This document shows, in pieces, positions 1,521 through 3,364 of a DNA stretch of 50,534 nucleotides. Numbering within the stretch: position 1 is the stretch's first letter; the number at the start of each line of letters is the position of its first letter. The stretch spans positions 1 to 50,534 of the forward strand of contig QHBJ01000036.1 in NCBI GenBank assembly GCA_003243975.1, written 5' to 3'. The notes under the pieces are model-generated. The model did not search any database and had not been told where the DNA came from. It saw only the letters and a list, made by a program, of their open reading frames with translations. The DNA comes from Candidatus Meridianibacter frigidus. Its GTDB lineage: Bacteria; Vulcanimicrobiota; Vulcanimicrobiia; Vulcanimicrobiales; Vulcanimicrobiaceae. The translations under genes were made by a program, and so were the position numbers.

Positions 1521-1549
1521 AATATAGCACCATCAAAGACACTTTACAA
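1521..1549 (-). promoter_or_regulatory. promoter of the CGNR gene
   Basis: The minus strand has TTGTAA (1544-1549, 4/6), 17 nt, TATATT (1521-1526, 5/6). The predicted start is at about 1514, the G of the GTG codon, implying a leaderless transcript. Its -35 box overlaps the -35 box of the opposite promoter at 1543-1548. Confidence 0.6.
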
Positions 1550-1571
1550 GTTACTCTAACCGGTGTACAAT
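1543..1571 (+). promoter_or_regulatory. promoter of the 46-codon ORF
   Basis: TTTACA (1543-1548, 5/6), 17-nt spacer, TACAAT (1566-1571, 5/6) on the plus strand. The start would be near 1578, 24 nt ahead of the GTG codon. It is back to back with the CGNR promoter and the two -35 boxes share five bases, so one DNA-bound protein could control both. Confidence 0.7.
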
Positions 1572-1601
1572 CTTCAGTAGTTACTTATTAAGGAGGCCCC
1601 A

Positions 1602-1742
1602 GTGAACACCCCGCGCCCTACGATCCCACTCATCCCCGAGCTCATCGACATCCGCCTGCGCACTAAAAGCGTCCGCGGCGCCGCCGACGATCAGTTGTTT
1701 CGCGGCTGGGGCATCGGCCTGCCCAGCTCCCGTAACTGGTAG
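1602..1742 (+). CDS. 46-aa small protein of unknown function
   Basis: A short ORF that standard length cut-offs miss. It has a near-perfect promoter, a strong Shine-Dalgarno AAGGAGG (1590-1596) five nt before a GTG start, and 39 of 46 codons end in G or C, as in the real genes around it. The peptide begins MNTPRPTIPLIPEL and ends GWGIGLPSSRNW; it has no membrane segment and no cysteine. It fills the gap exactly, stopping 11 nt before the stop of the convergent aldehyde dehydrogenase gene. No family recognised. A leader/RiPP-like precursor is possible, but no modifying enzyme is next to it; a small regulated partner of the CGNR protein is the other option. Confidence 0.7.
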   Translation: MNTPRPTIPLIPELIDIRLRTKSVRGAADDQLFRGWGIGLPSSRNW

Positions 1743-1753
1743 AGAAGGGCCCG

Positions 1754-3364
1754 CTAGAACCCTTTACCGGCCTCGCCGCTGTCTTTCTTCTCAACTTTCT
1801 TGGCGATCGTCTTTGCCTGAAGAAAAAGCAGTAGATAATCGGCGCTGCCCGCTTTTGAATCCGTGCCCGACATATTGAAACCACCGAACGGATGCGCGCC
1901 GACCATAGCGCCCGTGCACTTGCGGTTTAAATAGAGATTGCCGACGAAAAACTCTTCGCGCGCTCGGTCTAACTTGGCGTCATCTTTCGAATAAACGGCG
2001 CCAGTCAAACCGAACTCCGTGTTGTTCGCGATCTGCAGCGCGTCGTCGTAATCCTTGGCTTTAATAACCGCCAGAACGGGACCGAAGATTTCTTCTTGTG
2101 AAATGCGCGCATCGGGCGGCACATCCACGATCACCGTTGGTTGCAAGAAATACCCGCGGTCGCCGACTCTACTTCCGCCCGCGAGCAAGTTGCCCTCGCT
2201 CTTGCCAACTTCGATATACTGCGAGATCGATTTCAGTGCGCTCTCATTGACGACGGGTCCCATGTAGTTGTTTTGAGCGGCCGGATCTCCGACCGTGATT
2301 CGCTCGACGCGCTTCTTTAGCTTGGCAACGAACTCGTCGTAGATTTCTTCATCAACGATGGCGCGCGAGCACGCCGAGCACTTCTGTCCTTGAAAACCGA
2401 ATGCGGAAACGGCCACGCCTTCGACTGCGGCGTCCACGTCGGCGTCGTCCGCAACGATGATGGAATCTTTGCCCCCCATCTCGGCGACGACACGCTTAAT
2501 CCACTTCTGGCCGGGTTGCGTCTTAGCGGCCAGCTCATTAATGTGCAGGCCAACCTCCTTCGAACCAGTGAAGGAAATGAATCGCGTAAGCGGGTGCGAC
2601 ACAATGGCGTCGCCAATCGTGCCTCCCGATCCTGGGACAAAGTTCAGCACGCCCGCCGGTAGCCCAGCCTCATCGAGCAATTCGACAAACTTAGCCGCGA
2701 TGACAGGCGCGTCGCTGGAAGGTTTCAGCACGGCCGTGTTTCCGGCAACGATAGCGGCGGTGGTTATGCCAGCCATGATAGCGAAAGCAAAGTTCCACGG
2801 TGGAATTATGACGCCAACGCCCAGCGGAATGTAACGCAGTTCGTTGGCTTCCCCTTCCATTGGAACGACGGGTTGCGGGCCATCGTAGCGCAGCGCTTCG
2901 CGCGCATAGAATTCTAAAAAATCTATGGCTTCGGCCGTATCGCCGTCGGCTTCGGACCAACTTTTGCCGACTTCGTAAACCAAGAACGCGTTGAACTCCA
3001 TGCGCCGCCGGCGAACGAGTTCCGCTGCCTTAAAAATAATGCCGGCGCGTTCTTTGGCTCGTGTGTGCTTCCACGTTTCGAAGCTCTTGGCTGCGGCTTC
3101 AATTGCGCGCGTCGCTTGCTCGAGCGAGGCGGAGCCCACCAACCCGATAACTTCATCCGGATTGGCAGGATTGATCGAAGCGATGTACTTCTCTGTCTCC
3201 AGACATTCGCCGTCGATAACGATATGATACTTCTTTCCAAAATCGGATTGGACGGACCTGAGCGCTTCTTGCATCGCAACTACATCGGCAGGGTCAGTAA
3301 AGTTCTTTACGGGTTCGTTCTTAAAAGGGCTAATCGTGCGCTCCAGCGTGGCGGTCATCGGCAT
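1754..3364 (-). CDS. rocA: L-glutamate gamma-semialdehyde (1-pyrroline-5-carboxylate) dehydrogenase
   Basis: 536 aa, aldehyde dehydrogenase superfamily. It oxidises glutamate semialdehyde (P5C) to glutamate with NAD+, the second step of proline catabolism, in the cytosol. Visible: the catalytic base in EMGGKD (E295), the nucleophile in GQKCSACSR (C329), the FTGSKEVG cofactor motif (265-272) and PWNFAFAI (189-196). Length and N-terminus match the single-domain RocA/PruA class (Bacillus RocA type), not PutA fusions. A GGAG lies a few nt before ATG. No proline dehydrogenase gene is adjacent. It is divergent from the L-2-hydroxyglutarate oxidase gene 84 nt away. Subfamily assignment within ALDH is by overall resemblance. 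Confidence 0.88.
   Translation of the reverse strand: MPMTATLERTISPFKNEPVKNFTDPADVVAMQEALRSVQSDFGKKYHIVIDGECLETEKYIASINPANPDEVIGLVGSASLEQATRAIEAAAKSFETWKHTRAKERAGIIFKAAELVRRRRMEFNAFLVYEVGKSWSEADGDTAEAIDFLEFYAREALRYDGPQPVVPMEGEANELRYIPLGVGVIIPPWNFAFAIMAGITTAAIVAGNTAVLKPSSDAPVIAAKFVELLDEAGLPAGVLNFVPGSGGTIGDAIVSHPLTRFISFTGSKEVGLHINELAAKTQPGQKWIKRVVAEMGGKDSIIVADDADVDAAVEGVAVSAFGFQGQKCSACSRAIVDEEIYDEFVAKLKKRVERITVGDPAAQNNYMGPVVNESALKSISQYIEVGKSEGNLLAGGSRVGDRGYFLQPTVIVDVPPDARISQEEIFGPVLAVIKAKDYDDALQIANNTEFGLTGAVYSKDDAKLDRAREEFFVGNLYLNRKCTGAMVGAHPFGGFNMSGTDSKAGSADYLLLFLQAKTIAKKVEKKDSGEAGKGF

Follow-up and report, generated by a model that had tools for sequence, protein, structure and literature searches.

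A conserved 46-residue protein gene paired with a CGNR regulator, and a likely CGNR operator, in Vulcanimicrobiota

Main

In the TetR/MarR-type arrangement, an autoregulated repressor controls one divergent target gene. For the CGNR/ABATE protein Jann_2411 (PDB 3h0n), a role as a ligand-gated DNA-binding regulator was already proposed in 2009 (PMC2954205). In our search of the open literature, neither an operator nor a small-protein partner came to light for CGNR, ABATE or DUF1470 proteins.

Here we analyse a locus from Candidatus Meridianibacter frigidus, contained in a 50,534-nucleotide (nt) stretch of contig QHBJ01000036.1 that was studied as a whole and is hereafter called the window. A first-pass annotation had pointed to a 46-residue open reading frame (ORF) divergent from a CGNR regulator gene and had interpreted it as a real small-protein gene paired with that regulator, perhaps a signalling or toxic peptide module. 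Our evidence is sequence-based throughout and comes mostly from metagenome-assembled genomes, in which genes outside the window are simple ORF calls. It supports the gene and the pairing, though not a role as signal or toxin, and reveals a conserved DNA site between the two genes that is likely to be the CGNR operator.

A conserved small-protein gene

The small gene and its surroundings comprise the following features.

1543–1571, + strand: promoter of sigma-70 type driving the small gene, TTTACA (1543–1548), 17 nt, TACAAT (1566–1571)
1590–1596, + strand: Shine-Dalgarno sequence AAGGAGG, 5 nt 5′ of the GTG at 1602
1602–1742, + strand: 46-aa small-protein gene (class A, defined below), GTG start, 46 codons, TAG stop at 1740–1742
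1754–3364, − strand: aldehyde dehydrogenase (ALDH) gene, convergent, its end 11 nt past the small-gene stop

The promoter, the AAGGAGG sequence, the GTG start, the 46 codons and the fit into the gap before a convergent gene, all read by the first-pass annotation, are present in the sequence. Its figure of 85% G/C-ending codons also holds (39/46), compared with 0.65–0.76 in three neighbouring genes. In many relatives the promoter takes the form TTGACA-17-TATAAT; promoter-like sites number 5 in 4 kb, against 1.3 expected. Domain searches identify the window neighbours as the ALDH, an FAD oxidoreductase and the CGNR protein. Because the ALDH gene is convergent, the small gene has no co-transcribed downstream gene in the window, and its layout there is monocistronic.

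The first-pass annotation had proposed looking in relatives for a preserved reading frame, for mostly synonymous change and for constant association with a CGNR gene. A peptide search of 60 relatives gave two clear matches. With homologue profiles built first from four sequences and later from twenty, intact homologues of 43–46 aa were found in 25 of the 149 genomes searched from the phylum (Vulcanimicrobiota/Eremiobacterota), exactly one in each and none with an internal stop, so that the frame is indeed kept. The homologues include the window type, RPTIPLIFDYxELRLR...RADDPFLREAGIxLPISRV (type 1), and a second type from three genera, MFRDPIRTAPLVSDIxDIDLRLKxxRADSALFLESNLRLPHLRVx (type 2). Change is mostly synonymous: among 17 gap-free type-2 members, to which the test was confined because the more remote 44-aa members have diverged too far, pN is below pS in 136 of 136 pairs. 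The means are 0.17 and 0.55, with synonymous sites so near saturation that the ratio is a bound only, although its direction is plain. In the same 17 members, 27, 16 and 43 of 44 columns vary at codon positions 1, 2 and 3, respectively. By these sequence criteria, the ORF at 1602–1742 is a genuine, conserved small-protein gene, and one that annotation would miss. Pfam and NCBIfam hold no family matching the 46-aa peptide, and its AlphaFold model has no confident fold (pLDDT 65).

The CGNR/ABATE regulator

The divergent gene and its promoter lie on the opposite strand.

921–1514, − strand: CGNR zinc-finger/ABATE regulator, 197 aa, divergent from the small gene
1521–1549, − strand: CGNR promoter, TTGTAA (1549–1544), 17 nt, TATATT (1526–1521), with the start GTG at 1514

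The regulator matches PF11706 (zf-CGNR) with 58.1 bits (cut-off 24, E 7e-16) and PF07336 (ABATE) marginally, with 24.8 bits (cut-off 24.4, E 3.5e-5); its predicted fold matches 3h0n, the only ABATE/CGNR protein of solved structure, with E 1.1e-5 and a TM score of 0.52. The zinc-ligand residues C144, C149, C165 and C170 and the motif C170-GNR are invariant in 12 relatives. A domain search found no TPR in the protein.

Since its GTG at 1514 lies only about 7 nt from the −10 box, the CGNR mRNA is probably leaderless; many CGNR orthologues look leaderless too, with a start codon about 6–8 nt beyond the −10 (1512–1526 in the window). The window opens within a 16S rRNA gene (− strand), adjoined by the CGNR gene, which lies directly upstream of it on the same strand (1–1514). 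This arrangement seemingly recurs in several other genera (L002, L003 and L009) and is absent in the examined loci of genus g36.

A candidate operator in the shared control region

The −35 boxes of the two opposite promoters overlap at 1544–1548, as the first-pass annotation had observed in arguing that expression of the two genes is linked. The region that they share is conserved far beyond chance, and contains three further elements.

1528–1537, + strand: CACC-n2-CAAA, a conserved block flanked by the −35 boxes and the CGNR −10, kept in 25–31 of 31 loci per column
1549–1584, + strand: predicted CGNR operator AGTTAC-n24-AGTTAC, a direct repeat with a 30-bp period, both half-sites exact
1555–1561, + strand: extra conserved half-site (C)TAACC after the first AGTTAC, with T-n-ACC kept in 26–31 of 31 loci per column

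The first AGTTAC abuts the small-gene −35 and the second lies just past its −10; allowing one mismatch, 0.11 such repeats would be expected in the window by chance. Aligned intergenic regions keep a fixed order of CACC-n2-CAAA, TTGACA, AGTTAC, T-n-ACC, TA-n3-T and RGTTAC, with AGTTAC and RGTTAC spaced at 30 bp in 31 of 42 distinct sequences and at 31 bp in 9. This intergenic DNA is better conserved than the peptide itself, a conservation that is partly built into the search pattern, with the CACC, CAAA and T-n-ACC columns lying outside that pattern.

Within the phylum, the operator pattern occurs in 32 of 149 genomes, beside a CGNR gene in all 32, whereas the reversed pattern, used as a control, gives 1 match in the 149 genomes. 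It occurs once per genome, which gives no sign of a multi-site regulon. Scanning 84,980 species genomes yielded 36 matches, 30 of them beside a CGNR gene and in records of four phyla: 29 with the CGNR gene divergent in the locus, and L095, in which it lies past the stored edge. Records labelled as Actinobacteria, Chloroflexi and Deinococci are among these 30. Since many Eremiobacterota genomes recur across searches, the counts are not mutually independent. The six matches without a CGNR gene (L084, L087, L104, L105, L106 and L108) were taken as chance, for which the prior rough count was about 8, and the only other such repeat in the genome of the window was set aside, its flanks reading as coding. 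Judged by its sequence conservation and position, AGTTAC-n24-RGTTAC is a newly recognised DNA control site and likely the CGNR operator. A repeat that spans the small-gene −35 and −10 and touches the CGNR −35 fits an autoregulating repressor.

Pairing with CGNR and loss of the small gene

CGNR genes are present in 63 of the 149 phylum genomes, and all 25 small-protein homologues adjoin a CGNR orthologue, 23 of them in immediately divergent position; in G110 and G111, a TonB_C-like gene stands between the operator and the small gene. The association follows an orthologous CGNR subfamily, distant CGNR paralogues in the phylum having neither the small ORF nor the site. A maximum-likelihood tree groups the CGNR partners of class A proteins in a single clade (support 100/99), within which several losses are nested. 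Among the losses examined, L246, L248, L249 and L251 have a deleted or degenerate second half-site as well as no ORF, and G041 and L265 retain the operator without a comparable ORF. Several lineages have lost or replaced the small gene, which is therefore dispensable.

Two observations on these loci stand apart. At L265 (G125:C151), the only ORF after a good operator has 10 codons (MGPIILPPGS) and may be the remnant of a small gene. In genus g25 (L025, L026 and L247), the CGNR operator is directly followed by a TonB_C-like gene with a probable signal sequence; in L025 and L026 this gene precedes the small ORF.

The pattern of presence and loss bears on what the small protein could be. Were it the toxin of a toxin–antitoxin-like pair, with CGNR as the neutraliser, one would expect it never to occur without CGNR and to be lost repeatedly while CGNR is retained, as is seen. 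However, the layout is divergent rather than operonic, the gene is not scattered and mobile but present as a single copy next to an orthologous regulator, and a repressed target accounts for the same pattern; we regard a toxin as very improbable. Repeated loss of the peptide while the CGNR gene is kept also weakens the first-pass suggestion of a signalling or toxic peptide.

Three classes of small ORF behind the operator

A small ORF lies about 20–70 nt beyond nearly every true site, and these ORFs fall into three classes. Class A, that of the window, has 43–46 aa. Class A′ (family f3) has about 45 aa and ends in RTxLVRIPxGADTxLFGGWGVRI. Class B, found in other phyla and in some relatives, comprises basic, helix-like proteins of 55–91 aa. 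At L082, the sequence after the operator is masked. In L089, L091, L103, L111 and L115 (Actinobacteria, Chloroflexi and Deinococci records), the site precedes genes for basic, helix-like proteins of 64–83 aa, some of them running a few bases into the following gene.

Some class B CGNR partners nest among class A′ partners in the tree (94/91), so the small protein seems to have switched class while its regulator and site were retained, and three unrelated-looking classes behind the same site argue against one fixed function. The same data weigh on the idea that the small protein binds CGNR itself, as an anti-repressor or co-repressor, which would explain an inseparable pair: the protein is never without CGNR (25/25) and is the sole gene on the divergent promoter in the window and at most g36 loci. 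Yet CGNR is retained where the small gene has been lost, a switch between A′ and B within one CGNR clade (94/91) is hard to reconcile with a dedicated partner, and peptides with similar tails adjoin unrelated regulators. Binding to CGNR therefore seems to us unlikely, if still worth keeping in mind.

Downstream of the small ORF there is nothing in the window and at most g36 loci; elsewhere we find VOC genes (L009, L027, L025, L273 and L115), an EamA gene (L103) and a SnoaL-like gene (L089), the EamA, SnoaL and most VOC calls having been made by reading the sequence and not by profile. Could the ORF be a leader, acting in cis on a downstream gene through attenuation, arrest or translational coupling? 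In L089, L103 and L115, the class B ORF extends a few bases into the gene that follows, and the F-x-GWG peptides described below often end 4–50 nt before a GntR gene. In the window, however, a convergent gene comes next, after 11 nt, and most class A loci are alike; as no same-direction gene follows, an arrest peptide or leader was rejected for the window, where the absence of a same-strand gene leaves no cis role. As a general account, we hold a leader to be extremely improbable.

A wider set of F-x-GWG peptides

Searching with the A′ tail uncovered 57 distinct short peptides in the phylum that end in F-x-GWG. A transcription regulator lies within 1.3 kb of 48 of them, a raw count in which about 30 belong to one GntR locus type and are not independent. 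These regulators are most commonly of a GntR-ABC type, and also include CGNR, LuxR-AAA, SARP, BlaI, ECF sigma and possible XRE types. The window peptide has the tail DDQLFRGWGI / LFRGWGIGL, and its F-x-GWG motif stops several residues before the C terminus. Comparison of the class A and F-x-GWG profiles gives E 1.2e-4 when the window peptide and L109 are included and P 0.06 without both, and a 25-column C-terminal profile (A4) did not recover the window peptide. By its tail, the window peptide is weakly tied to short peptides ending in F-x-GWG-[VP]-[RK], a tie that we take as a lead.

Several loci of the wider set are of note. In L183–L206, L210, L212 and L215 (also L155 and L158–L162), from many genera, ORFs of 40–60 aa ending in LFQGWGPKF or similar come first, lying 4–50 nt ahead of genes for a GntR (YtrA-like) protein and an ABC transporter; the one LFQGWGPKF-type ORF that was tested matched no family model. 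In L147 (4937–7941) and L148 (2198–5166), an FGGWGVKI peptide is convergent with, and 12 nt from, a 934-aa LuxR-type regulator (AAA, weak TPR). At L286 (5025–9840), a SARP/BTAD gene, a divergent 47-aa peptide ending in LFPGWGPKL, a 105-aa protein and a YcaO gene stand in a row, a possible modified-peptide cluster.

Another reading takes the small protein for a secreted or internalised, pheromone-like signal whose C-terminal part is active. It is short and paired with a regulator, and the related tail F-x-GWG-[VP]-[RK] is kept to the last residues beside TPR-bearing LuxR and SARP regulators. RRNPP-type pairs likewise consist of a short ORF adjoining its regulator, as is generally known. Unlike them, the window locus has neither an export signal nor a TPR receptor: by inspection, the aligned class A members contain no hydrophobic export signal, and no TPR was detected in CGNR. 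No exporter or protease adjoins the window gene, and the final residues of class A proteins are variable. We consider such a signal improbable, and the lack of an evident secretion signal or of a nearby export or modification gene disfavours the first-pass idea from this side as well.

A precursor of a modified peptide (RiPP) would find a parallel in G034, where a YcaO gene (PF02624, E 1e-40) closely follows a related-tail peptide. No maturase was found at the window locus or at the class A loci examined, and the other SARP-linked peptide (L287) has no recognised YcaO gene nearby. Because YcaO was seen at no other examined locus, we rate a RiPP precursor as quite improbable.

More tentatively, and with considerable doubt, the CGNR-paired proteins may belong to a large, so far unrecognised F-x-GWG family of short peptides that stands under many regulators (CGNR, GntR-ABC, LuxR, SARP, BlaI and ECF sigma) and acts throughout via one common partner. 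If true, this family would be a phylum-wide small-protein channel for stress or communication, with the CGNR operator as one input common to several phyla.

Discussion

Our preferred explanation, to which we give a probability of roughly 0.7, is that the 46-aa product is a cytosolic small protein that acts in trans and is controlled by the adjacent, autoregulating CGNR repressor. A CGNR dimer would bind repeated G-T-N-A-C-(C) half-sites between the divergent genes, occupying AGTTAC between the small-gene −35 and −10, which also lies against the CGNR −35, and RGTTAC just past the −10. It would thereby repress both promoters until the ABATE domain takes up a small molecule. Once CGNR is released, the small gene would be strongly expressed, together in some lineages with a VOC, EamA or SnoaL-like gene that follows it. 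From the sequence we infer CGNR binding to the candidate site, repression and a toxic compound as the signal, the last suggested by the VOC, EamA and SnoaL-like neighbours elsewhere. The small protein itself would most likely bind a partner in the cell through its conserved second half; that partner is our guess.

For CGNR/ABATE proteins, called likely regulators since 2009, the locus offers a precise candidate operator and a regular first target, and makes CGNR binding and induction directly testable. It also adds a conserved small-protein family, absent from Pfam and NCBIfam, and points to what may be a larger family of short peptides linked to regulators, in a phylum with few laboratory tools.

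The window regulator shares with Jann_2411 (3h0n) its domain order, the invariant cysteines, the Cys-Gly-Asn-Arg motif and the fold. Unlike the distant CGNR paralogues of the phylum, its subfamily has a conserved candidate operator and a regular small-protein partner. With the TetR/MarR-type arrangement, the window has in common overlapping divergent promoters and an operator between them. It differs in that a CGNR protein takes the place of a helix-turn-helix regulator, that tandem half-sites in the same direction with a 30-bp period take the place of a palindrome, and that the target is a 46-aa protein.
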